In this document: in pieces, positions 5,188 through 63,084 of the stretch
How the letters are laid out: the number at the start of each line of letters is the position of its first letter
Position numbering within the stretch: position 1 is the stretch's first letter
DNA from: Macrolepiota albuminosa
Taxonomy: Eukaryota > Basidiomycota > Agaricomycetes > Agaricales > Agaricaceae
Assembly (NCBI GenBank): GCA_027475525.1
Contig: JAMWFC010000076.1
Coordinates: forward strand, 108,999-172,998
DNA length: 64,000 bases
Direction of reading: 5' to 3'
Notes under the pieces: model-generated
What the model was told of the DNA's origin: nothing
Seen by the model: only the letters and a program-made list of their open reading frames with translations
Database searches by the model: none
Program-made: the position numbers and the translations under genes

Positions 5188-6141
5188 TGACACACTAGAG
5201 ACTCTAGCGACCAGCCTTGGGTACAGAGCAGCCCTAGTGCAGGCGCTCTATGGCAAGACTTATCCATTCATCTCAATCACCAGTATCAGCCCCTCAGCAC
5301 CCTCCACTCAGTTACTTTGACGCTCTATGGCAAGACTTATCCATTCATCTCAATCACCAGTATCAGCCCCTCAGCGCCCTCCACTCAGTTACTTTGAAGA
5401 CCAAAGAAGGCCCAGAACTCATAGCGCTAGCACAACGGCGGGAGGTGACTCTGACCAAACCCCGATCAGTACTGAAAGGAGTTAGCAACTGGCGCTGTCA
5501 ATCACCGAGGCACCTCAATCAGAAGTCTAAAGGAATCAATGACGATGAGACAGGATACACGCAGACCCGACATTTAAATCTATCAAAAGATGGTACAATG
5601 TTTAGCGCCGGAATTAGCGCTCACGGTGTCTGTCAAGGATTCCCCGATCATACCCCGGGATGGCATGGCCAATTAAATTACATCAAAAAGTGAGCAAACT
5701 CGTACCACTTCTAAGTAGTTTTAGAGTCGCCATTGGTCGCCGTCACCCATGTGCTGCAGGTCGCCGTTGACAGGTGGCCGTTAGCTACAGTCACGAAGAG
5801 AGGCGCTAATTGGTAGCGCCATCAATGGACTTATTTTGGGAATACCGTAGCGCATAGTATAAAAACTAGCTACTTGCCATGTATATAACAACGAATCGTA
5901 ACCTACACCCAGTTACACTTAGCGTTCAAATCGTGCTAGCACTGCCTGACTTTGTCACCAAGTTCGGCGCTAGCTTCGTCTATCTCGTCTTTGTCGTTTA
6001 CGGTGCCACCTACGGGCACGCTACGCTGCGCTATTCGTTTCTTTCTCTATAACTTCTCCTAAACTACGACGCTTACCACTTGCTAGGTAGCACCCGAGGC
6101 GCTATCGTCTAGCGCATCACCCCATCACCTCTGCTCGAGCA
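5188..6141. repeat. Solo LTR (family R) inserted in Gypsy-A gag
   Basis: A TG..CA-bounded, non-coding segment flanked by CACT on both sides (5184-5187 and 6142-6145). It contains a TATA-like stretch on the plus strand (about 5858-5866) and a 77-bp internal tandem duplication. Removal restores the gag reading frame of Gypsy-A. A diverged copy lies at 27308-28206, again inside the same gag sequence. No coding region of the parent element was seen in the window, so the family is unnamed. Confidence 0.72.
5244..5397. repeat. 77-bp tandem duplication (in solo LTR R)
   Basis: Copies 5244-5320 and 5321-5397 differ at one base (A/G near 5299). The homologous LTR at 27308 has only one copy, so the doubling is not ancestral to the family. 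Confidence 0.95.
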
Positions 6142-6526
6142 CACTGGGACCCTGCTGGGACTCCTCACAAACCCGTACGCCAGGCGCTGGAGACGGCGTT
6201 GTACTGCGTATATGTCCAGTGCACCCAACCACAGTTGGCGTCATCAGCGGTTTTGTATATTGGTCCTCCACAGTCGCCTGCTTGGGACCCGATTCTGTGG
6301 CTGTAGACATTATGTAACGGATAAGTACCGGAGAGGACGAGGAGCTGTCAGAAGAGATCGCGCGTTTCCGCCCAGTCCATGGGGCAGGAGTTTCTGTATC
6401 CAAGGAGCTCGATCTTACGTTCAAGCTAGGCGAATTTTCCTCTGTGGTCAATAAGATGGTTAAAGGTGAAGAGAGCTCGGTCTTTCTTCGCGCGTGGCTG
6501 CGGGTTGTCAACGGAACAGAGGGCAT
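6142..6526 (-). pseudogene. Gypsy-A gag, N-terminal part
   Basis: A Ser/Thr-rich minus-strand frame beginning MPSVPLTTRSHARRK, lying between the 5' LTR remnant and the solo LTR. Its last codons before CACT (..QQGPSV) run on into GRPIMSLDALRSL at 5187 once the LTR is removed. Low complexity is usual for the N-terminus of fungal Gypsy gag. The start is the first Met of the frame. Confidence 0.6.
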
Positions 6527-6657
6527 TCGAGACAGCTTGGAAAGATACCAGTGTTGATGTAGGAAAAAAAGGACAGTACAGATGAAAGGAAAAAGTCAAT
6601 GTTTTTCAAAACAAGAATCAAACGAAGGATAGTCAGAGGTCGATGTTTAAAAAAAAG

Positions 6658-6860
6658 TGTAGGATGTTTACAGTCCTCACTGAGACCGACACAGCCAATA
6701 AACAGGACCTCGCTATATTCCGACAGTGAGTAGCACTGAGTACACGTACACAGAATTAAGGAGACTAAGAATATCGAAGGGAAAGGAAAAAGCCAGGAAG
6801 CCCCCCTTTGCAAGAAGTCGGGGTTATATGTCGCGGATCTAGATGACATAGGTAAGTAGG
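6658..6860 (-). repeat. Gypsy-A 5' LTR, truncated by Copia
   Basis: It matches 89-297 with scattered substitutions, mostly transitions. The match ends exactly where the Copia LTR starts (TGTTAAAGAC at 6861). The segment 6527-6657 between LTR and gag is an A/T-rich leader; no convincing tRNA primer site is visible. Confidence 0.75.
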
Positions 6861-7131
6861 TGTTAAAGACAGGCAAAGCACAGGGGACAGAAACTGTCAC
6901 TAAAGCTGAAGTCCAAAGTCAGAAAGAGTGTATTGAGCAAGTAAAGTATTACTAACCTGAAGTCCAAAGTCAGAAAGAGTGAGGACTTCAGATGATCTAT
7001 CTACAGTTTATATACTACTGGAAAACGATATACATGTGATAGAATATAATCACATGTGGATACATGTGATAGAATGAACTTGGGATAGAATGATGATCAT
7101 AATGGAATGCATGCAACAGGCAATTTCAACA
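6861..7131 (-). repeat. Copia 3' LTR
   Basis: 271 bp, preceded on the minus strand by the purine tract AGGGGGGAC (7132-7140). It carries one unit of the internal ACATGTGAT-rich minisatellite, which explains why it is shorter than the 5' LTR. Confidence 0.88.
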
Positions 7132-7140
7132 GTCCCCCCT
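7132..7140 (-). other. Copia polypurine tract
   Basis: The run AGGGGGGAC on the minus strand abuts the first TG of the 3' LTR, the expected position of the plus-strand primer of an LTR retrotransposon. Confidence 0.7.
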
Positions 7141-7168
7141 GATCTAGTGTATCTCCAAGTTTGAATAA

Positions 7169-8701: not shown

Positions 8702-9064
8702 TGTTAAAGACAAGCAAAGCACAGGGGACAGAAACTGTCACTAAAGCTGAAGTCCAAAGTCAGAAAGAGTGTATTGAGCAAGTAAAGTATTACTAACCTG
8801 AAGTCCAAAGTCAGAAAGAGTGAGGACTTCAGATGATCTATCTACAGTTTATATACTACTGGAAAACTATATACATGTGAATAAAGAATAATCACATGTG
8901 GATACATGTGATAGAATATAATCACATGTAGATACATGTGATAAAGTATAATCACATGTGGATACATGTGATAAAATATAATCACATGGGGAATACATGT
9001 GATAGAATGAACTTGGGATAGAATGATGATTATAATGGAATGCATGCAACAGGCAATTTCAACA
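8702..9064 (-). repeat. Copia 5' LTR
   Basis: 363 bp. It has the same ends as 6861-7131 but about four copies of a 31-bp ACATGTGAT/ATCACATG minisatellite (8870-9005). The two LTRs are otherwise very similar. Confidence 0.88.
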
Positions 9065-12049: not shown

Positions 12050-12352
12050 TGTTGAAATTGCCTGTTGCATGCATTCCATTATGATCATCATTCTATCCCA
12101 AGTTCATTCTATCACATGTATTCCCCATGTGATTATATTCTATCACATGTATCCACATGTGATTATTCTTTATTCACATGTATATAGTTTTCCAGTAGTA
12201 TATAAACTGTAGATAGATCATCTGAAGTCCTCACTCTTTCTGACTTTGGACTTCAGGTTAGTAATACTTTACTTGCTCAATACACTCTTTCTGACTTTGG
12301 ACTTCAGCTTTAGTGACAGTTTCTGTCCCCTGTGCTTTGCCTGTCTTTAACA
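12050..12352 (+). repeat. Copia solo LTR 1
   Basis: TGTTGAAATTG..TCTTTAACA, 303 bp, flanked by the perfect 5-bp target duplication ATATC (12045-12049 and 12353-12357). It interrupts Gypsy-B RT, so it is younger than Gypsy-B. It holds about two minisatellite units. Confidence 0.95.
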
Positions 12353-21180: not shown

Positions 21181-21334
21181 GGAGGGGCTGGTCGAGGGAG
21201 TCGTGGGGGAGGTCAAGAGCGTCGCTGATGAAAACTCCGGTGGCTCCGCTGTCGATGGGAGGGGCTGGTCGAGGGAGTCGTGGGGGAGGTCAAGAGCGTC
21301 GCTGATGAAAACTCCGGTGGCTCCGCTGTCGATG
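21181..21334. repeat. 77-bp tandem duplication (Gypsy-C protease, 1)
   Basis: Copies 21181-21257 and 21258-21334. It shifts the frame between protease and RT on the minus strand. Confidence 0.97.
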
Positions 21335-21465
21335 AGGGCCGATATCGGTCCTGGGGCGCCGTCCAGCCTGGCATTGATGACAAAGGATCTCCGGTGGCTC
21401 CGCTGTCGATGAGGGCCGATATCGGTCCTGGGGCGCCGTCCAGCCTGGCATTGATGACAAAGGAT
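21312..21465. repeat. 77-bp tandem duplication (Gypsy-C protease, 2)
   Basis: Copies 21312-21388 and 21389-21465, overlapping the previous duplication by 23 bases. Confidence 0.97.
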
Positions 21466-21668: not shown

Positions 21669-21822
21669 AGTTTGGTTATCAACATCTGGAGGGTGTGAGT
21701 CTGTCCGTTGGCGAAAGTAACGGGCATACGCACGAAGTGAGTGATAGTTTGGTTATCAACATCTGGAGGGTGTGAGTCTGTCCGTTGGCGAAAGTAACGG
21801 GCATACGCACGAAGTGAGTGAT
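21669..21822. repeat. 77-bp tandem duplication (Gypsy-C protease, 3)
   Basis: Copies 21669-21745 and 21746-21822. It doubles the segment coding for ITHFVRMPVTFANGQTH. Confidence 0.97.
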
Positions 21823-22130
21823 ATCCCCCACCGTAAAGGCGTCTCCGTCGAAGAGGCAGAGCCGTACCGGGACTGGGAGTCGCTGGGCGGGTTCCGGGGC
21901 GAAAGTAGACCATGCTTCATCGATGAAGTTGTTGGTGGCGCCACTGTCAACGAGGGTGTTGAGGGGGGTTCCGGAGGGGGTGAGGCGGGTTTTGAGGAGA
22001 ATGGAGTGCGAGGAGTGGGAGGGTAAGTAAGCTGTGAGGGTGTCCTGTATGAAGGTCGTAGAGCGAAGATGTGAGACCGGGGTGGAGAAGACGTCGGGGT
22101 CGATTCCACGATTTAGGGCGTCTTCCGGGT

Positions 22131-23336: not shown

Positions 23337-24926
23337 GCCCGGGAGGCCCGTTGTTCCAGGGGGTTCGTTCCTGCCAGGAGGGGGCCCGGGTCTCCACGCA
23401 GGGGTGGCGGAGGTGGGGGACCTGGGGGTCGTCCTCGAGGTTTGGCCGGGGGTGGTGGAGGCGGTCGGGGAGGGTTTGGTGGTGTCGGGTCGGGTGGAGG
23501 GGGGCCAGGTGCTGGGTCAGGTGCCGGGTTGCGTGGGGGACGCTCAGCCCGGGAGGGTCGTGCTTGCATCGGGGGTCGCGGGGGGTTCCTTAGGTCGAAG
23601 TGGGGTGGCAGATCGCGACGGAAGCTGGGTTCCGGAGGGACCAGGGCTGACATAGGGGGCGGTACTGGGATGGGTGCGGGCGCAGGACGTGGTTCGTTGT
23701 TGCCACGTGTGAGCTCGTCGATGTAGCACAGCGTGTCGTCTGTGTTAGGGGTGTCCGCGCGGGGTCTACCAGGGTTCGCCAGGGCCGGGGGTCGGGCATT
23801 GTCCATTTGCGAGAGGGGTTCCAGGGGTCTTTGGGGCTGTCCCCAGGTCTCGAAGGTACTAGGAACGGAGTTAGCCCTGCGGCGAGTTGACAAGCCTACC
23901 GTGCGGGCAGCGGGTTGATCGAAGAGGCCTCCAGTCGGATTGAGGGACCACAATATGGCTGAGGCATTTTGTTGCTCTTCCCGTTGTTGTTGTTCCAGAG
24001 TGGGGTTCACGGGGGCTGTCGGGGCTGCCGGGGCCGGCTCCGGGGGTTCCCGTCGAACGTGAATCGAGCGACCTGGGTCTGCGGGGTCATTGAGGGGTTG
24101 AGGGGAGAGGGACGCGTGGACTTCGTCGAGCAGCTGCTGCAATTCTTCTCGGAGGATCGTATTGCGCCTATACTTTACCATAGTTTGCTCCGGGAGTTCT
24201 CCTCGCATGAGGCAATCCCCGAATTCGACCAAGCAATGAGCTCATTCCTCCGGAGTGCCTTCGAAGTCATCGTGCCCGAATTCCGTGAGCAGCGCCCTTG
24301 TCCGTTGAGCGAAGTCCTCCGGCGTAATCCTGAGTGAGCGGAGTACTTCGTCCCGTTGCCGTTCATATTCTTCGAGGCGTCGTCGTCCCATTGGAGAGGG
24401 AGGGGTTCGAGCGGGTGGAGCGGCGGCCGGGTAGTGATGAGGGGGGTAGTCGAGGTAGGGGGGTCCTCGGGGTAGGGAGGGGTTCGAGCGGGTGGAGCGG
24501 CGGCCGGGTAGTGATGAGGGGGGTAGTCGAGGTAGGGGGGTCCTCGGGGTTCTCGGGTTGGGGAGCGGGGCGCTGGTAGCCGTAGTAGGGGGTGGGTGCA
24601 AAGGGGCCCTTGCTGGGGGGGATCGGGCGAGGTCCACTGGGTACTGGTGGGGTCTCCGGCAGGCCCCCGGGGATGCTCCGGTATGAGGGGACCTCCACGG
24701 GTCGTGCCATGGCTAAGTTGGGCGGAGGGGCCCAGCTGGCTGAGGGCCCCAGATCATAGAGGGATGGGTCAGGGGCCCAGTGGCGGTGGAGGTACGGAGG
24801 TTCATACAGGAGGGGTGGATAGATGGGGCGGGGGGTCTGCGCGAAGTAATGCTCGGGTACCGGGCGCCCGTAGGGGTCGGTCTGGTAGCCCGTGGGGTAG
24901 TAGGTGTGAGTATACGTAGCCATCAA
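23321..24926 (-). pseudogene. Gypsy-C gag N-terminal Pro-rich region
   Basis: A Pro/Arg-rich minus-strand frame starting MMATYTHTYYPTGYQTDPYG at 24926. It runs through a Pro-rich stretch broken by the 24397 duplication and goes on with YERQRDEVLRSLRITPEDFA and (24232-23321) REELQQLLDEVHASLSP and long Pro/Arg runs. A frame change lies near 24235. The reading joins the capsid near 23320. The low complexity makes the exact protein uncertain. The ATG at 24926 lies 31 bases inside the 5' LTR border, so it is the likely gag start. Confidence 0.65.
24397..24550. repeat. 77-bp tandem duplication (Gypsy-C gag)
   Basis: Copies 24397-24473 and 24474-24550. It breaks the gag N-terminal frame. Confidence 0.97.
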
Positions 24927-24956: not shown

Positions 24957-25786
24957 TGTCAGGTTCCGCTGAGTTGGGGACTTTTCAGGAAAGCAATTGC
25001 CCTTACAATGCGGACTTGACCCACGGATACTCGGGTGTCTGGAACTCCGGGGCTAGGACTCCGGGGTTCAAGACGTGGACAGGGAAATCCCGGGAGAGGG
25101 GACTTAGTCCGGTGTCTGGAACTCCGGGGCTAGGACTCCGGGGTTCAAGACGTGGACAGGGAAATCCCGGGAGAGGGGACTTAGTCCGGGAGTTTTGGGT
25201 GGATGGGTAACTGGGGAGTTCGGGTGGGGGTCGAGTCGTGAACCGGAGGTTCTAAGACGAGACCAAGTTAGTAAGTTAAAGTCGTGAAGTGCGTACCAGT
25301 CTTAGAGCACGTGATTATCCAAGCATGCCAGTCAAGCGTGCCAGTCAATGCGTACCAGTCAAATAGAGGGCACGCAACAATTCGAATGATGCAAAGTAAC
25401 AGTGTATGTAATATCAAGACTAGCGAATACAACAGGGAACTATGCTATAAGTACTACGGGACCAGGTCTCGGGATTCCAGGGTGTCTAAGATGGGCTCCG
25501 GGGGTCATTGAGTAGCGGCAGGGACTGTATACCGGGATCGTGCGTGTAGGGCACGCAATCAATTGGCGCGGAGAGAGCTGTGATGCGTGATGCGTGATAG
25601 CCAGAAATGAGTCGCGTGATCCGATCGTTGATCGGGGCTGGCGGTGGCTGATGGCGGTCCTTGATGTGCGTGATGGCAGTGTCGGTGGTTGTGATGGCGG
25701 GGCGTGTCCTGCGAGGTCGGAGGGAGGGTCCCGGATGGTGTTCCAGGGGTGTCCCGGGGTGGGCCCGGAGGGGAGGGGTCGTGACA
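24957..25786 (-). repeat. Gypsy-C 5' LTR
   Basis: 830 bp as given, but exactly 753 bp (the length of the 3' LTR) once the internal 77-bp duplication is removed. The region just inside it (24930-24956) shows no clear tRNA match. Confidence 0.92.
25034..25187. repeat. 77-bp tandem duplication (Gypsy-C 5' LTR)
   Basis: Copies 25034-25110 and 25111-25187, identical. The sister LTR at 14671 has one copy. Confidence 0.98.
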
Positions 25787-26090: not shown

Positions 26091-26318
26091 TGTCAGAGGA
26101 GTCCTCATTTCTTCCTTCCTTGACTTCTTATTTCTTCACTCTTCTTTCGTTCATTCTCTTATTTCTTCTGACATTATCTCATTTTACTGTTTCTATTCTT
26201 TCAACACTATCTTGTTAGTACTATTCTCAGCCCTTGAGGTGCTCTGGTTCTTTAGCTACCATTCAGATAAGTGTGGGCCCCTCAGCACTGCTTCCAGACT
26301 GCTTACATAAGTCAGAGT

Positions 26319-26472
26319 TTGCCAGAGTTTGCCCCTTATTTGTGCAATTATTTGTGTAGGCAATTTTCGAGTTTTTAAGGTTTTGTTGTACTGTATTGCC
26401 AGAGTTTGCCCCTTATTTGTGCAATTATTTGTGTAGGCAATTTTCGAGTTTTTAAGGTTTTGTTGTACTGTA
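26319..26472. repeat. 77-bp tandem duplication (left palindrome arm)
   Basis: Copies 26319-26395 and 26396-26472. The inverted arm has its duplications at other places. Confidence 0.98.
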
Positions 26473-26669
26473 CAGTTGTTTCCCATGCTTCAGAGGCCCA
26501 AGAAGCATCCAACCTGGCATAGGAAATCCTTAGACTTGTTCTCTTTGGATCTCCCTCTGCCAGGTGAGTAGTAATTACAATATTGTTAGTACATATTCTA
26601 ATACACTTTGGATCTCCCTCTGCCAGCTGTGTGACTGAGCTACAGCCTCTAGAGGTCGCCCTTACACAG

Positions 26670-26823
26670 AGGGAGATCCAAAGTGTATTAGAGTATATAC
26701 TGACAATATCATAATAACTACTCACCTGGCAGAGGGAGATCCAAAAAGGGAGATCCAAAGTGTATTAGAGTATATACTGACAATATCATAATAACTACTC
26801 ACCTGGCAGAGGGAGATCCAAAA
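26670..26823. repeat. 77-bp tandem duplication (right palindrome arm, inner)
   Basis: Copies 26670-26746 and 26747-26823, next to the palindrome spacer. Confidence 0.98.
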
Positions 26824-26922
26824 AGAACAAGTCTAAGGATTCCCTATGCCAGGTTGGATGCTTCTGGGGCCTCTGAAGCATGGAAAACAACTGTACAGTA
26901 CAACAAAACCTTAAAAACTCGA

Positions 26923-27076
26923 AAATTGCCTACACAAACAATTGCACAAATAAGGGGCAAACTCTGGCAAACTCTGACTTATGTAAGCAGTCTGGAAGCA
27001 AATTGCCTACACAAACAATTGCACAAATAAGGGGCAAACTCTGGCAAACTCTGACTTATGTAAGCAGTCTGGAAGC
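26923..27076. repeat. 77-bp tandem duplication (right palindrome arm, outer)
   Basis: Copies 26923-26999 and 27000-27076. Confidence 0.98.
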
Positions 27077-27275
27077 AGTGCTGAGGGGCCCACACTTATC
27101 TAAATGATAGCTAAAGAACCAAAGCACCTCAAGGGCTGAGAATAGTACTAACAGATAGTGTTGAGAGAATAGAAACAGCAAAATGAGAGAATGATAGAAG
27201 AAATGAGGAAATGAATGAGAAGAGAGTGAAGGAATAGGGAGTGAAAGAAGGAAAGAAATAAGGAGTCCCCTGACA

Positions 27276-38496: not shown

Positions 38497-39891
38497 AACT
38501 GACTTTCTGGAAAGGGAAGAGGTTTGAAAGAAGCCCAAAATCGCAGGCTTCTATAAGTAAGGGGAAACGCGTGTTTATCGGCATCCAAGCGCAGAGTGAA
38601 AGAGATCCATCAATGATGGAAGGTCAACCAAGGGTAAGACATGTCTGTCATTATGGACCAGAGTCCACTTGACGGAGTGGGTTGCATCCTACACTACAAC
38701 ATCTATACTCGCGTCCCCATCTTGAATTACAGATATCGATAGAGGCCCAAGTTACTCCTGAGCTCTTCTGAAAACTGCAGCTGATCGTCATTTGACACTG
38801 GCGGAGCATGAAAGAGTGACTTCGAAGTTGATATCAACGTTTTTAAAGCGGCCGCAATGACCCCATAAGGCGACCATACACAAGTTATGTATATAGCATT
38901 TATACACTTCCTTACATGATGAGAACACTGAGCACAGAAAGAAAAGCTGGATGTGGAGACGCGCTTAAACACAGGACAGACAATGCCTGAGGCCTGAGCG
39001 CTGAGCACTTTCCCATGCATACTCGCTGGAATGATGATGCTTCATTCAACCTTTGTCCACGAATAAGAATGTTTCAAAGAAGAAGAATACATCGCACGAG
39101 CAACATGATGAGATATACATATCCTTTACCACACAAGGTTATTCTCATAGTACGGGCCACGACAGGACGTCCATGGCTGCAGAAGTTTCGAATAGTACTT
39201 TTTACGGCAGCACTTTGCGTCATTTTTTAGGTGCCACGACAGGACGTCCATGGCTGCAGAAGTTTCGAATAGTACTTTTTACGGCAGCACTTTGCGTCAT
39301 TTTTTAGGTGATCAATGCTTTCCAAGTCTGGCGGCCAGTCTACTTTGGTGACAAGAAGATAAGGTCCAAAAAGAGAGGAGGTTGTGGATCACGAGTTCGT
39401 GAATTCATTTCGAAAAATTTCAGTTATTGTAGAGCCGTAGACCAAGGTCGCCAGAGGTTCCATAAGGGCCGGAATCAGAGCGCGCATAGAGGAGACTTGT
39501 GAAAAGAAAGAAAAAACGAGAAAGATCGCAATTACCTGTATTTTCGACATGGAATCTACATTGTTTTGGTGCCTACTAGCTCACTGTCAAGACTGGATTC
39601 TTTGGACCAAGGTGAAAAGACGAGGTAGTCTATGACTACCCGGACTTACTCGGCTTTCAGAGCTTGATAGCTTGTCTACAACTGAGTCGACCCCAGGGCC
39701 AGCGTATCTGAGAATAGTTACGCGTTCCTCAATTTGACAGCTCTGGGTTACTTTATAAGGGTTGTTTGTATTTGAATCTAAAGACATCACCTTTCAAACA
39801 CAACATGGCCTGATCCCATGTTTCTAAGTTACACGTCAAACACATTTCTCCACGACCTCAGGAAACTGTTTTTCTTCACAAAAATCTCACA
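38497..39891. other. Intergenic, 1.4 kb
   Basis: Short ORFs only, none with a recognisable domain or convincing intron structure. It contains one 77-bp duplication (39156-39309). The last few hundred bases should hold the promoter of the GPI-anchored protein gene. Confidence 0.5.
39156..39309. repeat. 77-bp tandem duplication (intergenic)
   Basis: Copies 39156-39232 and 39233-39309, in non-coding sequence, so coding selection plays no part in the length. Confidence 0.98.
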
Positions 39892-41695: not shown

Positions 41696-42321
41696 ATGAC
41701 TGGACACTTAGATTCTTCATTATCGTCCCTTTCTAACAATGATTCACCAACTCAGATTGAAGATTGGGATCGCTCCTTAATTATTTCCGATGTGGAATCT
41801 TCATCATGTCCACTTTCACAACCGCCTTCGAAAAAAACACCTCGGAACTCTATCGTTTTTCCTGTGGACAGTGATACCACCCCTGGTCGCACGCGAGCAA
41901 TCACAATGGAAGGCTCAACCAGAGGAGAGAGGTCTTTGAGCGAACTTCTGAGGCTGCATGCGCAAAAGGGCACAGACGTCAAGTATAGTGCAGAGGAAGC
42001 TTTACAAGTTGCCGAGGTCCTGGGTCAATGGGTAAGCTGTGTTCTTGACTCCTTCATATCGGATCCCTTCGCCGAATCATATCCTCTTTTGTCTCCGTTC
42101 TTCTTTTATTGCTGTTTGAATGCGTCTTATTCATCAATTCATGCTAGATCAATGCATCCTCGTCGCCGTATGAGAGTGAAGACGACTTTTTTACCAGATC
42201 CCATGACGATTTGTTAGTACCAAGCAAGAGTATTCCCTTGTTTCCATCAGCAATAAGGCCAAGAGGTCAAAGTGAGAGCGCAAACTCACGACCTACAAGT
42301 TCGACTGGCTTTGCTCAGTGA
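41696..42321 (+). CDS. Small Ser-rich hypothetical protein
   Basis: Start MTGHLDSSLSSLSNNDSPTQ; exon 1 ends at ..LGQW before GTAAGCTG, and exon 2 opens INASSSPYESEDDFFTRSHD after CATGCTAG. The stop is at 42319. The central helix RSLSELLRLHAQKGTDVKYS followed by AEEALQVAEVLGQW looks conserved; the rest is disordered. No function known to me. The 77-bp duplication at 42290 begins in its last codons, so the true C-terminus should be checked. Confidence 0.6.
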
Positions 42322-42443
42322 TTTTGACTCGACCTTTCCCAGTCTCCGTCGCCTCTACCGACTCAAGACCTACAAGTTCGACTGGCTTTGCTCAGTGATT
42401 TTGACTCGACCTTTCCCAGTCTCCGTCGCCTCTACCGACTCAA
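42290..42443. repeat. 77-bp tandem duplication (end of small gene)
   Basis: Copies 42290-42366 and 42367-42443, over the stop codon of the small Ser-rich protein. Confidence 0.98.
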
Positions 42444-46595: not shown

Positions 46596-49500
46596 TCAAG
46601 GGCGCCATGAAGGCTTGCTTCCATTTGCGCCAGCATTAGCGAGACCCGCGGTCTTCCTCCACTCTCCAACACTTTTCACTCTCTTCAACTCCCCCCGTTT
46701 CCGTTCCTCGACCCTATTCGCAATTGCATTCCTCTCCATGTCCTCGAAGCCCCTAACCAAATCCTTTACACTACTTGCACTGCTCCTCCTTGGTCTAATC
46801 ACCGCCTTGTCCTTCTCAGGCGGCGGACTTACGCGGTGCAGCTCTACCAGTCTCTGTGGTCTCTGCGGACGAGGTATCAACGACAATTTGGAAGGGACAG
46901 GTGCAGGGTTGAGGTGTACAAGTTCCTTGGGATGTGTGGGCTTGGGCATGGGTTCACGAGCCGGGGTGATAATAGGTCCTCGGCATTTCTCTAAAACAGA
47001 GGCAGGAGGAAGGGGAAGGCCTGGGCGGGAAGACATCGAATTTGGCTTAGGAGCCGGTTTCTTGGAGAGAGTGGGGAGGTAGGAGAAGAGAAAACCTTTG
47101 ACGCGAGATTTGAGCGTGCTGGATGGGGTCGGATTGACGACGGTGGTTTCGGTGGGCACGGGGGAAGGACAGGAAGCTGTTTCTGATCTAGCCTCAGTCT
47201 CTGTCGAGGTATTCGCGGCTGTTTCGACCTCCGTTTCTTCAGGGTCTCCATCGTTGCTGTTATCATATGACCTCCCCGTATTAGATGGATCAGGAAGTTG
47301 GCTGACAACCACCGCTTCTTCCAAAAGGTGCGAGTACCGTGGTGCCAACAATGACAACGGAAGTTTCCTCTTTGGTTTTTCCTGTTCGTGTTCCGGCGTT
47401 TCCTGAAGGTCACTGAACGGTGCTCCAGCTACGACAGGCAGTGGAAGTGACGGGCGGCGGCCAGGCGGAGCGGCACGGCGTCCAAGGGGAGTAAAGTCCG
47501 GCACTTCCATGGAGGAGAAGCGATGGGTGAACAGGCTGGCCGAGGGGTTGGTGAGACTGGGACGTGGGGTGTTAGGCGTCGTTGGTGGCGCTATGATTCC
47601 TTTTCGCTGCTTGTTCTGCAAGGCTTTGACTCTTTGCACAAGGTTCTCCCTGTTGACCTCGTTGAGATGGAAAAGAATAAAAAAACGCAAGAAAAAGAAC
47701 GCACATTTTCCAATCCTCACCCCACTTGTTAATGACATCTTCACCTCCCAACATATCCCCAAACCGTCTGGCTACGTGTTCGGGATTTACCTCGTCAACA
47801 GATGCAATTTGACCATCTCCAGGCCCCAGTGCAACGCGCTCGTCAGTAAAGCATGCATCAAGGAGCTTCCATTCTTCCTTTGTCCAGACCCTTTCTTTGG
47901 CTGTATGCTCAAACAGACTACGTGCGAGCCCGGGGGGGATACTTGATCTTGGTACAGGTGTAAACAGATGTGAAGAGTTTCCGAGCTTGGGAGGGGTTCC
48001 TGCGATTGTGGTCTCTGCCTCCTTGAGCAGCTCTGGTAGCGTCGTCACGGGACTTCCGGGAATATAAACCTTGTCTCCGATGACAGAGGCACCAAGTGTC
48101 CGACGCCCCATGCGATCACGAGGGTTGCGTGACTTGGTGATCCCACTGGCAGAGAGAGAATGTCGGCCCTTTTGTGTACGGAGGGCGAGCCTGGTGAAGC
48201 AGTCGTAGTCGTGCTGCAGACGACGTGAAGATGGATATTTTAGATAGTGAAAGGACATACTTGTTTGAGTATTGCAGCTGCTCGAGCTGCGGCGTGTGGA
48301 TCGGCACTTGAGATTTTGACTAGGCCGTATTCGAGCTCTTCTTCGTCGGAGCTTGAGTCTTCGTCTGCTTCGGTTTGAGAGGGATGAGGAGCAGGGGTGG
48401 CGGTTACGATGGGATCTTCGTCGTCTAGGGAGAGAGACATTTCGCGCACTTCACGTTCGTCAGCTTCATCGGCATCTTGTTGTGCGGCTGCGGTGGTTTC
48501 CCCGATAGAGATTTCAGCTTCCTTGCCGGCATATTTTTCTGCGAATTGTAAGGCCGCAGGGGATTCTTCGATAGATGTGTTGGCTTCTTTGCTGGTATAT
48601 GTTTGCAAGTCTTGTGCGGTTACAAGGGTTTCCTCTGTAGATATTTCAGCGCAGTGTTCCATGTGGTACATGGCTGCAGGTTCCTCTGTAGATATTTCAG
48701 CGTAGTGTTTCATATGGTATACGGCTTCGATAGATATTTCAGTGTCATGTTCTACGATTGCAGATTCCTCGATAGATATATCAGTTTCATGTTCCAGGGC
48801 TGCAGGTTCCTCGATAGATATTTCAGCTTCATGTTCTACGACTGCAGATTCCTCGATAGACATTTGAGCTTCATGTTCCAGGACTGCAGGTTCCTCGATA
48901 GATATTTCAGCTTCATGTTGCGCGACTGCAGGTTCCTCAATAGATATATCAGCTTCATGTTCCAGGTCTGTAGATTCCTCGATAGATGTGTCCGCTTCGT
49001 CATATACGATTGGAGATTCCTGCGTTTCATGTTCCATGTCGTAAACAACTCCAGGTTCCTCGATAGATTTTTCAGGTCGCTCAATAGATGCGTCCGCTTC
49101 AACAGGGATGGATTCCGTGGCATCAGCTTCTTCAAAGGAAGCATCAAAATCAAATGGTCCGCAGTGGGTGGGTACAGGATCAGCAGGAAGAGCCTCTCTG
49201 ACCTGACATTCCTCCTCTTCCTTCAAGAGGTCAAGCCGTTCAACTCTGCGGAAAGGAAAGGGGGTGATGGGACGGCCCCACTCTTCCTGGCGTTCACGGG
49301 TGGCGCTGCTGGGAGGATCAAGCTTTGTGCGGATGCTAAAGGAGCGGAAGGAGCCGGTATACTCGCCCTGGGCGAGGTGGCCATCGTCGTCGTCGTCGTC
49401 GGACCAGACGCACACGCTGGGATCAGTAACGTCAAAGAGGGTGTCTGCGGTGACTGGAGCGCTTTTTGTGCGGGGACGAATTGGAGAGGACGAATCGACA

Positions 49501-50590: not shown

Positions 50591-51186
50591 GTAAATTTCG
50601 TGTGGGAACGTCAAAACCCGGCCTAGGGTTAAGGTCAGGATTGTGGAGGCGCTCCGCTGCCCTTTTGGCATAAGCCTGATCGTCTTCCCCGTTAGCAGCT
50701 TACTTAGTGTTCAAACAATACTTTCAGGCACTTTGTTAGTTTACTCTGAGACATGTTCCCGGATTTTAACGTTGAGAATGAATTTTTGTCTTGAAAGTAT
50801 TGAAGTTTGTCGGTTGAGTCCCTTGTCTTGATGATGACGCTTTCAGTTCGGCTTTTTGTTCAGGCCTGCTTTCGCGTCGCAATGATGCGAAATCTTATAC
50901 ATAATGGAGAAGCTCAACATACAGTGCCCCATGAGTCGGTACACATTTGACATTGCTCTCGTTTCAATTGTTCGAACCGGCGTTAGGGCCAGGAAATATA
51001 ATCAGTTTCGGCCACATAAATCTTTAACACTTCTAATACGTGATAGGACCGAACCGGCGTTAGGGCCAGGAAATATAATCAGTTTCGGCCACATAAATCT
51101 TTAACACTTCTAATACGTGATAGGACTCCAAACAAGAAAAACATATCCATCCACCACACACGGAGAAATGATTTAATCGACGGGGT
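50591..51186. other. Intergenic
   Basis: No gene supported. Contains the 77-bp duplication 50973-51126. Moderately A/T-rich. Confidence 0.45.
50973..51126. repeat. 77-bp tandem duplication (intergenic)
   Basis: Copies 50973-51049 and 51050-51126. Confidence 0.98.
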
Positions 51187-51643: not shown

Positions 51644-52512
51644 GGTGGCAAACAAGAGAGGGATAGGTAGCAGCTGTGATCAATGTTACATCATCAACAT
51701 TCTTCCGCAATAAGTGGTGACGCACATGGTATCTGTGACAATGGTTCATGAGTTAGGTAAACAAGCCTTTAGAATATATTTTACATACTAAAGTTTTATT
51801 TTGTAAAGTAGGTTCTCCATCTGTTTTCTTGTTCTAACTTGGTTGGCCATCTCATAATATACAATTTGAGCAAGAGCTGTCTGTTGGACAAGACTGAGTC
51901 AGAAGAGTTTTGAGGGGATCTGATGTAGGTACGTTTCCATAATTTACACATTGATGGGGGGGAGGGGGTATGTAATGAGCACTGCGAATATTGTTTACAT
52001 ATTACATACATGATTTAAATTTACACATTGATGGGGGGGAGGGGGTATGTAATGAGCACTGCGAATATTGTTTACATATTACATACATGATTTACTCTTT
52101 TTCGTACTTGTATGGTATGGTCAAGTCCATTTGTATTGTCTGAACTGCTTAAAACAGTAACTCTGTCACAACATTGGTACCTACCAAATGAAAAGCATGA
52201 CAAAAGACGACAGTAAATTAGATGTACAACAAAAGTGACAGAAGCATAAGATACTGTTGGCACTGCAAGATACTGGGCATGAAGTTAGAACATGCAGTTC
52301 AGCAATAGGTTTTACAAGGAACAGTAAGGATTGCACTTGAAACAGCAGTTTAATGAATTCCATGGAGAATGTTCAAGCTCAAACCTGGTCTTCATGACAG
52401 CACAGAGTAGGTACACATTACACGCAAGCAATCCTCCCATGGAGAATGTTCAAGCTCAAACCTGGTCTTCATGACAGCACAGAGTAGGTACACATTACAC
52501 GCAAGCAATCCT
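51644..52512. other. Intergenic
   Basis: A/T-rich, no supported gene. Two 77-bp duplications lie here (51941 and 52360) and a G8 run. It probably contains the PMP3 promoter and the 3' UTR of the next gene. Confidence 0.45.
51941..52094. repeat. 77-bp tandem duplication (intergenic)
   Basis: Copies 51941-52017 and 52018-52094; includes a G-rich run. Confidence 0.98.
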
Positions 52513-52513
52513 C
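52360..52513. repeat. 77-bp tandem duplication (downstream of DUF4048-like gene)
   Basis: Copies 52360-52436 and 52437-52513, ending at the stop codon of the minus-strand gene. Confidence 0.98.
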
Positions 52514-54306
52514 TACCAATTCCATTCATCCCCACCCTTAGCTGCCGGCCTTGTTTTCTCATCAACAAGATCAATCAGCGTCGGAGAGGCGGACCCAAGT
52601 GACTGCCAGATTGGATCTGTAGTTGATGCTTTGGGGGTAAACGTCATCCTTGGGGAGTTGTTGTTGAAAGAGGCCACAGCACTTCTGTTGAATGAAAGAA
52701 GATTAGACTCAGCGCTGGATGGGTCAAAATACGACGAGGGTGGTGAGGACTGTGTCGTCACCGACGTGGAAGGAGAGGAAAGCACAGATTTGATAGATTG
52801 TGATACATCGGAAAGCAGAACTGAGGCCCGTTTCTGGTTCTTTGAGAACCTGGGGTAACATGAGTAACAAAGAGAACGTAAGGGAAGAAGGGACACCAAC
52901 GTTGAAGTACGCTGCAATTCTTCCCATTTCTTCCCTACGCTCTCAACCAAGGACGGAACGGGTGAGGTTGGCCCCACCGTCAGTGCAGCAAGGCCTGGAA
53001 TCGATGATACCGGCGGAAAGCTTGTTCCATGTACCGTTGCTCTCTTCGCCCTCTTTGCCTCCTTCCTTGCTGCCTCTATTTCCTCCAAGTCGATCCAGCC
53101 TGGCTTGATGAGTCGACGGACCTTCGCATGGAACGAGGGCACGAATGCACGTCTCGCGATTTCGGCGGATTAACTTTGGACTTCTTAAAGAGGCACCTCA
53201 AATTCTTGTTGCGAGCCACTTTGCCTTTCTGCTGCCGCTGCTGGCGTTGGCGCTCAAAGGCGGGGTTGGGACTCATGGTAGGCGTCGCGCCTGTATCATA
53301 CCTTTCTGCTGCCGCTGCTGGCGTTGGCGCTCAAAGGCGGGGTTGGGACTCATGGTAGGCGTCGCGCCTGTATCATAGACCATGAGGATTTGTGCTGGCT
53401 CACAGTCACCAGCTTTCTCAGTTGTAGCTCCTTCAGCAAGGGATGGTGTAGGGAACTGAGAGGAGTTTTTCGCATAGGTGGCGGATGACTGAGGGTAGGA
53501 GTGTGGCAAAGGGCGGGGTACAGATGAAAGGGAGGGCGAGTGAGGTTTCTGTTCTCCAATGGCCAGACCAGCCGCTATTAACCTGCCAACGCCTTGCATA
53601 CCCTCCACAATGCCTTCAAATACTGCACCGTTTCCTTGAGAAGGAGAAACGGAAGCCGGAGGATTGTTCAGAAATCCTCGGTTGACAATGCGCTCCCATT
53701 TTTGCTTGACTTGGAAATATGGATGAGCTAGAGACAAGGCAGGTTTATAGATAGACATACGCTGGGTAATTTCGGTCTCAAGGTTGGTTAGCTGCGAACG
53801 AAGCTCGAGGCATTTCGATTCCTTCTGGGCAATCAAGTGCAAGAGGTCCGAATGCCTGGGGTTAAATTCAGGACTATAATGTCAGGGTGTAGACGGAAAA
53901 CAGACTGTTCAACCAATGTCAATGGCGGTCTTTCGTGTTCTCCATGTTCCTTCATATGGCACTTGAAGTCATAGCAGAGTTGTTCGAATTGGGCTCGGGA
54001 CTACTGACAACGCAGGAGGCGACTCAATGACGTGATTACTGAAACGGTATGAGATTGAAGAGTGACGGCGGACATTTGGCTTGGAAAATGGGCTTGAAGT
54101 GTTGGAGCTGAGAGGCGGGGAAACGAGCGTTGGAGAGGAAGGAACGTTGCCGTCGAGGAGATGAAGGGGCTTGAAGTGTTGGAGCTGAGAGGCGGGGAAA
54201 CGAGCGTTGGAGAGGAAGGAACGTTGCCGTCGAGGAGATGAAGGGGACGGGGACCCATTGTTACATTTAAGGAGAGGCGTTTGGACGTCGTCGACTGAGA
54301 CGGCAT
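52513..54306 (-). CDS. DUF4048-like Ser-rich coiled-coil protein
   Basis: Start MPSQSTTSKRLSLNVTMGP, a Ser/Pro-rich N-terminus with RRHSSISYRF. A helix follows (HLIAQKESKCLELRSQLTNL, ETEITQRM), then KWERIVNRGFLNNPP and GIVEGMQGVGRLIAAGLAIG. The C-terminal part has AKVRRLIKPGWIDLEEIEAA and GKKWEEL before an intron, then FSKNQKRASVLLSDVSQSIK. It ends ..KGGDEWNW. The last motifs resemble fungal DUF4048 proteins, whose function is unknown. 77-bp duplications at 53224 and 54090 interrupt it. Family call from memory of the motif, moderate certainty. Confidence 0.6.
53224..53377. repeat. 77-bp tandem duplication (DUF4048-like gene, 1)
   Basis: Copies 53224-53300 and 53301-53377. It doubles the coding text NPAFERQRQQRQQKG. 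Confidence 0.98.
54090..54243. repeat. 77-bp tandem duplication (DUF4048-like gene, 2)
   Basis: Copies 54090-54166 and 54167-54243. It doubles the segment LLDGNVPSSPTLVSPPLSSN. Confidence 0.98.
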
Positions 54307-54396: not shown

Positions 54397-55386
54397 TTAG
54401 ACGCGCTTCCATACCACGATCCTCTCTTTCCCAACGTGTCTGGGCAAGGACGTCTCTGGAGTCTTGTCAAAAACCTTCTCAAAAGCCTCGCCCAAAACTT
54501 CCTTGTAATGTTCTACACGCACGAAGAAGGGAGGACCCACGTCAGATGGCGGTTCGATAGGCCAGACAAGTGTGATCAAATAGCCTCCAGGATTGACGAG
54601 AGAAGCCATCTGCTGGCCCCATTCGACACGACGTTGCGGAGGAATGGCAACAAAGAAGCTGTACAGGAAAGTTGAGGTTTTTGCTGTGACATAAACGCAG
54701 AAAATACATACGTATAATCATAGACAACATCAAATTTGACTTGGGGTTCGAAGCTGAAAAAGTCTCCTACCTGAAACGAGACCTCGCCAGGGCCAGGAAT
54801 ATTGGCTGTTGCAACATAACTACAGACTTGGGCACAATGTTGGTTCCCAAGACTCAAGGTGACACTCACGCCCGTGCCCTCTCGATGGCGGTCTCCGAAA
54901 TGTCTATTCCAAGTACCTTGAGGTCCAGCGCAGAGGCGAGATAGATCGTATCATATCCCTGTGAATAGATGATGGGTCCTAGCATGGGACTTGAGGTCAA
55001 AGCTCACCATCCCACAACCCGGGACTAGAGCGTGCCCGTGACGAGGAAAATGATGACACCGGATTCAACAACCTCCTGCAAAGGAGGTTGAGAAGTGCCG
55101 GCGTCCCATGGGGTGACGTTGGCCTGCCTATGACACCGGATTCAACAACCTCCTGCAAAGGAGGTTGAGAAGTGCCGGCGTCCCATGGGGTGACGTTGGC
55201 CTGCCTGAGTGTCTGTGGCAGTGATGTGCTTGACAGCAAGAAGGCACTCACCAAGCACTGTCCCAGTGGAAGGATGGCCGCTTTGTACGATTTGGCGTAA
55301 CTGATCCATAGTAGGTAATACTCTGAGATTCCACCGCTTGTTGTGGAAGGATGGCCGCTTTGTACGATTTGGCGTAACTGATCCAT
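54397..55386 (-). CDS. Thiol (TPMT-type) S-adenosylmethionine methyltransferase
   Basis: It transfers a methyl group from SAM to small thiols or halides in the cytosol. Minus-strand exons give MDQLRQIVQSGHPS, NVTPWDAGTSQPPLQEVVES, HALVPGCGMG (SAM motif I), YDTIYLASALDLKVLGIDIS (motif II), ANIPGPGEVSFQVGDFFSFE, KFDVVYDYT, ASLVNPGGYLITLVWPIEPP, FVRVEHYKEVLGEAFEKVFD and the end ..HVGKERIVVWKRV. This is the layout of fungal TMT proteins. Two 77-bp duplications (55053, 55266) fall in the N-terminal exons, so the ATG appears twice (55309 and 55386); only one is real. Confidence 0.85.
55053..55206. repeat. 77-bp tandem duplication (methyltransferase, 1)
   Basis: Copies 55053-55129 and 55130-55206. 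It doubles the exon text NVTPWDAGTSQPPLQEVVES. Confidence 0.98.
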
Positions 55387-55419
55387 AGTAGGTAATACTC
55401 TGAGATTCCACCGCTTGTT
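55266..55419. repeat. 77-bp tandem duplication (methyltransferase, 2)
   Basis: Copies 55266-55342 and 55343-55419, including the start codon. Confidence 0.98.
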
Positions 55420-57897: not shown

Positions 57898-60800
57898 TTA
57901 ATCAGCTAAACCAATGCCACCGTGGACTGATCGCATATGTCCGTAAATTCCATTGCCGCCAGGGAATGTCTTGAGACAGACCCAGCATATGTGAGTCTTG
58001 CATTGAGTGCATGTCATGTGATTGCAGCCCTCGTCTCGTTCGATGAGGACATGGCAGCCAGGACAGGCCTTGACATCGTGGTGTGCCATCCACGCTTGGA
58101 AAAGATTCTTGTCACCCTCCGGATCAGGGCAAGTGAAACCATCGTGGGCTTCGACATGACAGCTGGGGCATATTCGTAACAGGCATGAAGGACATTGCAA
58201 CACTGTGTCCCTGGGACTTCGACGGTAAATTTGTGGGCAGTCTGGGGTAGGACAATAGTGGAACTCGTCTCCACGAGCCTGAATGTAAGCAGAGAATGCA
58301 GCATCTACGACTGCATCAAACTCAGGAACTGTCAAAACTTTACGCGCAGTGTGGAGTGGTATATGTTCCGTACACTTCGCATTGTTTCCTAGACAGGTTA
58401 ATGGGAAATACTTGTTATCAATGGAGGAGCTAAGGTAATGGGTTAGACAGTCTCGACACCAAGAATGAGCGCATGGAAGGATGATCGGATTTGTGACTTC
58501 GTCAAAGCAGACTGGACATATCGCAGTATTCCGACGGCATGCAGGATGAAGTTGTTTTTGACGAACGCGCTGGACTAAGTCTTTTGCTTCTTGGTAGACG
58601 TCGTCACCTCCACGAACAATCAGGCGGCGGCGAGAGAAATCCAAATTGATGTTTTCGCAACCAAATTTCTTTTGAAGTTGCGCAAGGTTTGTTTGCATGA
58701 AATGACCTAAAAGCCAACCATCAAGAGGAATAGTACGGGTTTGTTGAGTCTGCAGTATAGTCAATTTGTCCAGAATTTGTTGTCTGACAGCTGCGCGGTA
58801 AGCTGAGGGTCCCAGTAAACGTATCATCTGCCGGGGAATGTCAACATGAATTGTGACATTAGGCGTGCAGTGTTCGATGTCACCCAGAAAGGACTGTCCA
58901 GCCGGGTGAGCAAAGAAGGGATCCCATGCGATAGCTTGGCCTTGACGAATAGTCTCCCAGTTAAGGATCTTACTAAGCTCCGCTTTGAGCTGACCCAGTT
59001 CCCTCAAATCATCACCAGACAATTTGATCAACGTCTTCATGGGCGCAGGTCGTTCAATGATAGACATCGTAGTCCGATGGTCATTGTAAACCAATCGACG
59101 TAGAGCCCTGATATCACTGCCCAACTTTTTATACGCTGTGGCAGATACTGCAAGAGATAGTGATTGAAGGTGCTCAGCAACAATTCGTGTTTTGCCAGTG
59201 AACATGGGTTTGCGACCATGAAGGCGATTGCATGCCGCCTTGGCATCGCTGGGTGTGGCGAAATGTGCCCACGCTTGTATTCGCGCATTTTTGTATGGAG
59301 GCGGTTGTACCATGAAGTCGAGAAGCTCCGAATTTTGTTGCAGGATACGCTGGATACCTATCCTAGCAAGATCTAGATCTTTATAGTTTGGTCGTGCCCA
59401 TACCACATCATCAGGTTTAGAAAACCACGCCATGTCTTCCTTTGTCACATCCACAGGAAGGCCACAAAAGCGGACGGTGACGACGCCAACCACAGGAAGG
59501 CCCACATGAACGGATGCACGAATATGATTGTCACGGAAGGCCTTTTCACGGGCAACTTGCATACCAGCCTCGGCGAGTTTCATGTTTGAGTAGCCACAAT
59601 AAGCGGTTCTGCTTGGTACTTCCCAACGAATGCGAACCGATGCGTCATTGAACATTGCGTCGCTAAGTGATGCGTTATGCATGGGGAGCCGTGCTGTAAT
59701 TTTAACGCCGAACGCCTGAGCGTTATGAAGAACGGTGCTTGCGTCACGGGCACTCTCAGGCGTCTCAAAGCGCGCCCGTGCTAGAATAGTGGGATTACTG
59801 ATATGGGTTGGCAGCTTGAGGTCGACCACTTTGCCGAAGGGTTGTAACAGATCTGCAATTTCCTTTTCTTTAATATGTGCTGGAATGTTCCCAAGATATA
59901 TCCATGATGTTTCAAACCCAGTTTGGAGTTCTTGAATGTCGAATCCCGGTCCAAGTTTTACCCTTGCATGGTCATGCACTTTAACTGTCCAGCTCCGTCC
60001 TTCCATTGTTTCCTATAGAAGTATATAAATCATTACAACTTCCAATAAAATTTCAACACACATTGACATCACTCATTCTGCTAGAGGGTGGCACCGCAAT
60101 GGATTTTGATGAAGGAGGGTCATAATCAAGGTCTTCGTGGCGATACTTGCAACCATATCTTGCCTTGCAACGACCACGAAGCCATTGTATGCATACGTCC
60201 TGATTTTTTGGAGCAGGGCGTTGACCGACCGGAGGGTCACTGACGGATTCATTGACAGGGTCCGGCTGAGTTTGTGGCATAGGAGGTGCAGAAACCTGAT
60301 TTGACGTGAAATTAATCATAAAACTCAGCAACGTTATAACATACTGGATTATCGTATTTGAGGTCTAGATGGCGATAGTCGCACGAACCAAGGGTACACC
60401 TGCCGAGGATCCACTGCTGGCAGACTTCAGAGAACTTGGGTGGCGGACGTGCTTCAACTTTTAAAGGTGATTGTTGATTAAGAGGATGACGAGGGGTCTT
60501 TTCGATGCAATGAGGTCAGCATCCAGACTTTGAGATCATGGTACTTACAGGAGTGTCATACTGGAGATCTTCATGTATGAAGTCACAAGCATAACCAAGA
60601 AAGCAGTCATTTAGCTTTGAAAGTCCGCAAACAATCGGATATCGAGGTGGAGGATGTATCCCTCTGACAGGAGGTTCGTAATTGACATCATCATGATAAA
60701 ACTGACAGTTTGGACCAAGATTGCATCGGTTCATCATCCAATCTTTACAGAAGGCATTGAATTTAGGAGGAGGGTATGCGATATGAGCATCATCGCTACC

Positions 60801-62584
60801 CCCAGACACATTGCCATCTGCGTTTAAATTGTCCTCGGCATCCCAGGCACGAGCATTGCCGGCGTTTTTAACCTGCTGAGTCGACTACACATAATAAGAA
60901 AGATTCTTTTGGAATAGAACAAGTATAACCGACCTGTCCATAAACCAAATCGCCATGACGATGTGAACAAAGGTATCCGCGTGTACAGACACCATTTTGC
61001 CACGACTTACAGATGATGTCTGAACGAGGAAGAGGATAGATTCCGTCGACAGGGATATCATATTCCAGGTTTCCATGGACGTAAGGGCAGTCGTATGTTT
61101 TCTGACAGATTTTCTGAAGCCAGCGGCGACAAAAATAGCGAGACGCGGAGGGGGATGTGTCTTTGGACGATTTGTCGTGATGGTGCTGTCTTCAGAAGTA
61201 ACGAACACGAAGAACCCTGAGGAGAGAATTGATCTGATCATAAGCAAACATGAGTGTGATGTCGTTCGATGATAAAAATCTCAATACTGTATCTTGACTG
61301 TCGTCAGAAGTCTGCCCACCATCAGTATCAGCATCCAAGCGACAGGGTACTATGCCACGTTCAGTATGATAGCGAAGTTGAACACCGGACTTGGCTAATT
61401 GTGATATACTATAAATTTCTTGACCTGCATGAGGCGTTCAGTATGATAGCGAAGTTGAACACCGGACTTGGCTAATTGTGATATACTATAAATTTCTTGA
61501 CCTGCATGAGGATCCGGTTGAGCCGCGCCCGTAGTGTTATAGTTGGTAACGCCTCTACTCTGCTTCATCTAGACTAAGGAAACGAGTTTCTGCGTGACGA
61601 AAAAACCTACTAACCTGGGTATTAGAAATGAAGCTGGAAGATTGAACGACTTTCTGGATATTTCAAATTAGTGACGAAAAAACCTACTAACCTGGGTATT
61701 AGAAATGAAGCTGGAAGATTGAACGACTTTCTGGATATTTCAAATTAGTATTCATTTGTGCGCAAACAGAGTTTAGCGGTACATTCGCCATAGCTACGGC
61801 TATGTCGCTCGTAGATCCATTACTGGTCGAAGCAGAAGGACCGCAGAAGCCTTGAGCACGTGGATGAATACGAGAACAGCGCTCGTTGGATCGGCATTTT
61901 CCATATAAAAAATCTCGGCAGACTGCATTCGATGACGCGCGTGTAGGATGTGCCTTGTTACTTATGTTAGCGAAAGAAAATTATCAGCATAGTTGAGACG
62001 TACGTCCCAGCCAAAAGCATAAAACTTAGGTGAGATGGGTTCCGTGACAGGAGTGACAGATGCGGCGGCATCATGGGTGACCTAAAGATGTAGAGAGTCA
62101 ACCATGACGGCTTTCCGAGAGAACGAGAGATGAATCAGATATGACAAGAGAAAAGGATCGAAACTTGTTGAAGCGATCCACATAACAGTATGTTACGGCT
62201 CGCTGAACGGCGTCTAAGTGAAACCAGATTGCACGAAACCAGATTCCCTACCTTGGTAGTCGCCGGTTGAGAAGATAGCTTCTCCTCCGTCAATGGTGCA
62301 CCCTTCTTGTGCTTACGCCCAGATAAATTCTGCCGCGGTTTCTTTTCCGGACTCTACAAGTTTAACGTGACTCGAAGACAATTTGGATGCACATGAAAAC
62401 ATACGGTAGTCTTGGAAGCAGTGAGGACAGGGCAAGGTGGAGCCTCTTTGCTATCTGGCTCGGGCTTAGCATCAGCAGCAGGTGTCTTGTGAGCTGCTGA
62501 AGACTTCGGTTGAGACGAGCGAAGTCGAGAGACATTTTGTCTCATCTGCCGACCAGGAGGAACCGCTTTTGGTGTAGCAGTCAT
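57898..62584 (-). CDS. RBR ubiquitin ligase with seven CCCH zinc fingers and an RRM-like domain
   Basis: Multi-exon. Start MTATPKAVPPGRQMRQNVSR at 62584. Seven CX7CX4-5CX3H fingers follow in small exons (about 61930, 61115, 60990, 60750, 60610, 60400, 60160), most trailed by a DLxYDxP motif. The last exon (60006-57898, 702 codons) has an RRM-like fold (SWIYLGNIPAHIKEKEIADL, about residues 38-110) and a second weak one. RING1 begins at residue 497 (CPVCFDEVTNPIILPCAHSW), an IBR-type domain follows (about 580-630), and RING2 starts at about 648 (CPGCHVLIERDEGCNHMTC). The Cys in EGCNHM, near residue 661, matches the catalytic Cys of RBR ligases. It should ubiquitinate partners bound through RNA or fingers. 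Two 77-bp duplications lie between fingers. Confidence 0.88.
61358..61511. repeat. 77-bp tandem duplication (RBR gene, 1)
   Basis: Copies 61358-61434 and 61435-61511, between the upstream finger exons. Confidence 0.98.
61594..61747. repeat. 77-bp tandem duplication (RBR gene, 2)
   Basis: Copies 61594-61670 and 61671-61747, just downstream (minus strand) of the first CCCH exon. Confidence 0.98.
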
Positions 62585-62930
62585 ATTGGCAGAAGAAGAT
62601 CTGCGTTCTATCGAACACGAACGGACAATGGAGAGAAGCGTGTGAAAGTAAGCAAAGAACGTCCAGCGGTTCCGGCCAAGTCTTGAGAGGCCATATCGCA
62701 GCTATCATGACTTGATTTCCTAAATTTGGCACGTGCATTGATCTGTCTCAACCGAGTATTTGTACCATGTACACTGTTCATTCATAAATCCTTGTGCCAA
62801 TTTCGTCTCACCCCAATACAGATCTATTTACCATACATGAAGATATAATAGCCTTGCAAAATCCCTAGTGCGACCAATCATGTTTACCACCTGGTGATAT
62901 CCATCTCCGCCTCTCCAAACATGCTTGTCT
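62585..62930. promoter_or_regulatory. RBR ligase promoter and MET2-like 3' flank
   Basis: Spacer between the RBR start and the end of the MET2-like gene, both on the minus strand. No clear motif. Confidence 0.35.
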
Positions 62931-63084
62931 TCTTCTTATTCATCTTCCATAGGCTCCTCGACCTCCTTCTCGTAGATCTTCGGGAATTCCCTTTTCATAA
63001 AATGCCGTCTTCTTATTCATCTTCCATAGGCTCCTCGACCTCCTTCTCGTAGATCTTCGGGAATTCCCTTTTCATAAAATGCCG
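62931..63084. repeat. 77-bp tandem duplication (MET2-like 3' end)
   Basis: Copies 62931-63007 and 63008-63084, over the last codons and stop (REFPKIYEKEVEEPMEDE). Confidence 0.98.

Follow-up and report, generated by a model that had tools for sequence, protein, structure and literature searches.

We analysed a window of 64,000 nucleotides from the mushroom Macrolepiota albuminosa, corresponding to positions 108,999 to 172,998 of contig JAMWFC010000076.1 (hereafter C63) in the assembly GCA_027475525.1, which comprises 100,137,612 bases in 129 contigs. The window contains 24 places at which a unit of 77 base pairs (bp) stands twice in direct, abutting copies. These double copies, which have no strand assigned, are found in unique as well as in repeat DNA, among others in a retroelement and its long terminal repeat (LTR), in a palindrome and in the N-terminal coding stretch of MSH2. 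A self-comparison of the window for exact tandem runs of at least 30 bases at offsets of 10-999 yielded 24 runs at offset 77, one at offset 84 and none at any other offset, and all 24 runs of 40 or more bases have the offset 77. The run at offset 84 is located in a 42-bp minisatellite (48727-48998, about 6.5 copies), which lies within a long minus-strand open frame. Tandem Repeats Finder recovers the same 24 units, with the one at 42290 begun six bases earlier. An initial annotation of the window, made from the letters alone, had listed 24 tandem duplications with one period; all of its starts proved correct, and the offset is exactly 77 in every case. Its statement that an internal mismatch is confined to the first unit was likewise borne out, as the other 23 are exact over 77 (n=13), 78 (n=6), 79 (n=3) or 80 bases (n=1), and the unit at 5244 consists of 55 + 21 matching bases that flank a single A/G mismatch between the copies.

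The excess over 77 bases in the 23 exact units corresponds to the expectation by chance: 0, 1, 2 and 3 additional bases were observed in 13, 6, 3 and 1 units, compared with 12.9, 6.5, 2.4 and 0.8 expected. This chance-only extension beyond an exact 77 indicates that the underlying process is blind to the sequence at the unit edges. Elsewhere in the genome, 12 stretches of 10 kb that were picked by contig number alone (120 kb in total) were scanned for exact tandem runs of 40 or more bases at offsets of 20-1000. They harbor 34 runs, of which 32 have the offset 77, one 76 and one 78 (the last two both in stretch L019), and the distribution of offsets outside the window, proposed by the initial annotation as a check, thus peaks at 77. 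The number of runs per stretch varies from 0 to 12, with at least one in 8 of the 12 stretches; the value of 32 is an inexact count of units, because a few runs are pieces of a unit broken by a mismatch or an indel. Six further loci on C63 and on a second contig, C106 (55 kb, chosen for their position), contain 14 runs, all at offset 77. A chance origin of the double copies was rejected, since a single offset dominates both the window and the 120-kb sample.

Nine of the units are located in the left, repeat-rich part of the window. The first (5244-5397) lies in a repeat-rich stretch, many other copies of which match it in two pieces and are thus single at this point. Four units occupy the retroelement (21181-21334, 21312-21465, 21669-21823 and 24397-24550); at 21669, other copies of the element are single or carry units at shifted places. 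The right-hand LTR is double at 25034-25189 and the left-hand LTR is single. Two units are positioned in the arms of the palindrome (26319-26472 and 26923-27077) and one near its centre (26670-26825). The near-palindromic element as a whole (26213-27153) has many genomic relatives, with 107 matches among the best 40 of 2,653 candidates. The assertion of the initial annotation that the units share no sequence does not hold: the second copy of 21181 extends 23 bases into the first copy of 21312, position 14748 in the left-hand LTR holds a sequence similar to the unit 25034, and a partial match in inverted orientation connects 26319 with 26923. Its claim that removal of one copy makes the two LTRs equal is supported in kind, in that the alignment between the LTRs consists of two segments separated by an offset jump of 77.

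The right part of the window allowed a direct comparison with a second version of the same region. Positions 1411001-1456000 of C106, reversed, were aligned to 27930-64000 of the window; the identity is 97-99.8% in most aligned segments and goes down to about 93% in some, and the C106 stretch is probably the other haplotype. Colinearity ends at position 27930, and for the repeat-rich block to the left (1-27930) the compared part of C106 offers no equivalent, except for one match of 73%. The C106 stretch covers 15 of the 24 window units, and the remaining nine lie in repeat-rich DNA that has no equivalent there. Fourteen of the 15 are single on C106, and one (50973-51126) is double on both contigs. 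Conversely, C106 has nine units of its own in this stretch, eight of which are single in the window. Two other stretches (L016 and L008) provided no usable allele, because both consist of high-copy repeats.

The individual units show a recurrent relationship to the differences between the two contigs. The window is one base short at the right edge of the units 32458-32612 (in the N-terminal coding stretch of MSH2, minus strand), 34169-34323 and 42290-42443, and it has a right-edge substitution at 35502-35656 and at 51941-52094, in the latter case with the contigs also diverging four bases to the left. Further downstream, it is one base short at the left edge of 52360-52513, 53224-53377, 55053-55206 and 55266-55419, exhibits left-edge substitutions at 54090-54246 and 61358-61511, and carries three extra bases at the left edge of 62931-63084. 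Two units lack an adjoining difference, the nearest being found after 20-21 matching bases for 39156-39310 and after 53 for 61594-61749.

For a quantitative assessment, 18,491 77-mers that both contigs share once (from 27,521 positions tested) served as controls. In an ungapped comparison, a contig difference is located 0 bp from the unit edge in 8 of the 15 window cases versus 0.66% of the controls, and at a distance of at most 2 bp in 13 of 15 versus 1.9%, whereby the unit cases allow a shift of the longer runs by 1-3 bases and the controls have no such ambiguity. The gap-aware analysis comprised 24 instances, 15 from the window and nine from C106, with the shared locus at 50973 entering twice. 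In 19 of them (13/15 in the window, 6/9 on C106), one edge of the unit, and only one, directly adjoins a difference. The first events in these 19 instances are ten single-base losses in the contig that carries the duplication, seven substitutions, one gain of three bases and one alignment effect of the shared locus; single-base gains are absent among them. Further single-base losses accumulate on the differing side, with 26 versus 3 on the other side within 400 bp and 21 versus 3 within 250 bp. Two clusters of lost bases are present relative to C106, namely six losses, five of them single-base, in 137 bp near the unit 53224 (53087-53223) and four single-base losses in 115 bp near the unit 61358 (61144-61258). 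Both look like unpolished long-read sequence.

The consequence of such a seam for a coding region can be retraced in MSH2. On C106, the N-terminal stretch is a single open frame (217 codons) with matches to the MutS_I domain and to solved Msh2 chains (residues 11-109). The window version is broken into two frames, of 131 and 113 codons, and both are without a Pfam match at E 0.001. The initial annotation held that removing one copy restores the coding of MSH2, which is incorrect: dropping 77 bases leaves the two frames apart, because the window is also one base short beside the unit 32458 and the net change amounts to +76.

The retroelement and the palindrome were compared with their other genomic copies. 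Each repeat search scored the best 40 of 641 to 2,653 candidates, a ranking that favours sequences running through both copies of a unit. The match to the window breaks in two at the unit in many genomic copies, which are hence single there, and others run through. Twelve repeat loci were inspected for runs of 20 or more bases at offset 77; no such run was present in L036, a copy of the repeat at 5244, and in L045, and the other ten, searched for units with up to four mismatches, harbor 12 units with identical copies in nine and one mismatch in three cases. The start corresponds precisely to that of a window unit in two cases (21312 in L039 and 26923 in L043), differs by 1-4 bases in five and lies further off in five. 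These near-coincident starts are weak evidence for inheritance, because the loci were taken from top-scoring matches, which favours near coincidence; hot spots common to the repeat copies may exist. An old duplication inherited within the repeat families, first suggested by top matches that span both copies, is opposed by the identity within the copies and by the shifted starts in 10 of the 12 units. The 12 units of the ten repeat loci did not show the combination of inherited edges and independent divergence in descendants that would characterize a biological duplication.

These observations bear on the question of whether a real biological process could generate exact 77-bp tandem duplications throughout the genome. 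The occurrence of the units in both unique and repeat DNA and the presence of the unit 50973 on both contigs would be compatible with such a process. We nevertheless regard it as extremely improbable, in view of the one invariant length with chance extension, the identity of the copies in 23 of the 24 window units, the single state of 14 of 15 units on a near-identical contig, the link to a one-sided difference, the MSH2 frame that is split on one contig only, and the shifted starts in other repeat copies. To our knowledge, no process of fixed 77-bp duplication exists. Equally improbable is a live process in the mushroom lineage that inserts exact 77-bp duplications into the genome of one nucleus, with thousands of target places and a loss or change of a neighbouring base at every one of them.

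The most likely explanation is that the abutting copies represent the overlap of a short-read de Bruijn assembly with k = 77 that was kept twice, and that they are very probably no biological feature. This reading of the sequence is based on the fixed length, the chance-only extension, the spread over the sampled genome, the single state on a near-identical contig and the position of the seams beside differences. Four features expected of such an artefact were observed: an invariant length in unrelated sequences, an exact match to k with chance extension, a single copy on the other contig and, in 19 of 24 instances, a unit end at a difference. SPAdes operates with the k values 21, 33, 55 and 77, the last of which commonly serves as the final k when reads are 150 bases long, and it is a plausible source tool. 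An odd overlap of 77 presumably fits SPAdes, where the overlap equals k, better than assemblers with an overlap of k-1. The process of SPAdes creates overlapping sequences at contig ends, as stated in the relevant passage of the Unicycler paper (PMC5481147). A surface-level literature search turned up no k-sized tandem artefacts.

A seam of this kind could have arisen as follows. An accurate short-read contig would terminate in a 77-mer, and the next piece, probably a less accurate long-read patch or a haplotype branch, would open with the same 77-mer. If both pieces were written consecutively, with the shared 77-mer left untrimmed at one end and the far end joined properly, the outcome would be a seam that contains the unit twice and an uncorrected error or a haplotype difference on one side. 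In the picture that we favour, the assembly would be a patchwork in which long-read filler of lower accuracy alternates with accurate short-read contigs, the 77-base anchor having been left untrimmed at one end of the filler. The role of long-read patches within the twice-kept overlap has, in our estimation, about an even chance of being correct. It overlaps with two other forms of the same artefact, and the likelihoods given for all of them are hence not mutually exclusive.

The first of these forms is a plain join of two short-read contigs that share a terminal 77-mer and were concatenated without a long-read patch, the breaks representing heterozygous branch points of the graph. Seven of the 19 first events are substitutions, which is what heterozygous sites would produce, and all kinds of differences are enriched on the differing side. 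The overlap of the units 21181 and 21312 implies a piece of 131 bases (77 + 54), which would be a natural short edge of the graph, and overlapping ends of SPAdes contigs are mentioned in the passage cited above (PMC5481147). However, the ten first events that affect a single base are without exception losses in the contig with the duplication, which is unlike the prediction for heterozygosity, some units are accompanied by clusters of single-base losses, and most differences between the contigs are not associated with a unit (347 substitutions, some of them misaligned bases, versus 24 unit instances). Plain joining thus appears a tentative and rather doubtful option, and heterozygous branch points as the entire cause are weakened by the uniform direction of the ten losses. 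The initial annotation had attributed the duplications to contigs joined without merging their k-mer overlap. The sequence-blind artefact of fixed length that it proposed is supported and consistent with k = 77; the seams, which lie beside a difference on one side in 19 of 24 instances, fit a short-read contig that adjoins uncorrected long-read sequence at least as well as simple contig joining.

The second form relates to the side on which the contigs differ. Among the fitting window cases, it is the right side in five of six up to 51941, with 50973 as the exception, and the left side in all seven from 52360 onwards; on C106, it is the left side in five of six fitting cases. This switch may reflect a processing of the pieces in a single direction, followed by their placement in either orientation. 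Such a course of events would also agree with polishing or correction by k-mers (k = 77) that inserted the anchor 77-mer where the repair of an error was attempted and failed, and the units indeed adjoin unrepaired single-base losses. Against this stand the three instances without a nearby difference (39156, 61594 and C106:1442247); moreover, a surface-level search of the literature retrieved no account of such a tool fault. We therefore consider a polishing fault unlikely.

Several observations weigh against the twice-kept overlap or its long-read form. The allele test is based on one 45-kb stretch of C106 only, and both contigs carry 50973 in double copy. Five of the 24 instances do not conform to the one-sided pattern: both flanks match over at least 19 bases at 39156, 61594 and C106:1442247, the difference is a few bases away at C106:1434944, and one difference is located on each side at C106:1428008. 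Within 150 bp, the imbalance of single-base losses (10 to 4) does not reach significance (p = 0.18), and within 400 bp the other kinds of difference are more frequent on the differing side as well, with 81 substitutions versus 56, 13 single-base gains versus 5 and 55 longer indels versus 19. Where homopolymers are involved, the unit frequently ends 1-2 bases before the exact branch point that is expected of a plain de Bruijn graph. Because all kinds of differences are enriched, the excess of losses within 150 bp is non-significant and the shared locus was counted twice, long-read error is not cleanly separable from haplotype divergence, and part of the one-sided effect may be due to the latter.

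Some additional features of the assembly and the window were recorded. A gap of exactly 100 N is present at C1:506276-506375 (L008:6276-6375) and suggests that the assembly was scaffolded, too. On contig C81, repeat matches recur at about 250879-300991 and 807276-857388 and are always 556,397 bases apart, and comparable spacings were found on C114 (351,482) and C126 (281,388), which suggests large duplicated blocks, real or false, inside these three contigs. The window also contains a 227-bp inverted repeat with arms of 100% complementarity (8702-8928 and 12126-12352; 3,197 nt between them), and a frame of 704 residues (57898-60012) whose best relative originates from Termitomyces sp. T159_Od127, with an identity of 87%. 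Other agarics come next, and the DNA thus probably stems from Termitomyces or a close relative.

The 32 runs in the 120-kb sample correspond to a density of about 0.27 per kb; if the artefact is true, extrapolation from stretches that vary between 0 and 12 runs would put the number of false double copies in the 100-Mb record at roughly 27,000 and the amount of false sequence at about 2 Mb. MSH2 exemplifies how a seam within an exon disrupts the frame, and gene models, pseudogene calls, repeat ages and surveys of tandem duplications that are derived from this assembly would therefore suffer. The finding is accordingly a warning about the data quality of the assembly and not a piece of biology. 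The scan for one sharp tandem offset that equals a common k value represents a cheap test that is usable on any public genome.

A comparison with known systems places the double copies among the products of assembly. Target-site duplications flank an insertion. They and biological tandem duplications resemble the window units as direct repeats of short DNA, but here the length of 77 is alike in genes, spacers and repeats, and the copies of the window abut with nothing between them. The closest parallel is provided by the ends of SPAdes contigs, where neighbouring pieces share their end sequence as they would here, and where an untrimmed overlap would result in a direct double copy; in the passage of the Unicycler paper on this subject the overlaps are removed and scattered k-sized tandem copies are not described, and the equation of the overlap with k = 77 is our own deduction for the present assembly (PMC5481147). 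False duplications in genome assemblies, as portrayed in the relevant part of PMC9516828, are alike in being assembly-made duplicates that lead to false conclusions, and the units of the window differ from them in their fixed length of 77 and in their abutting copies.

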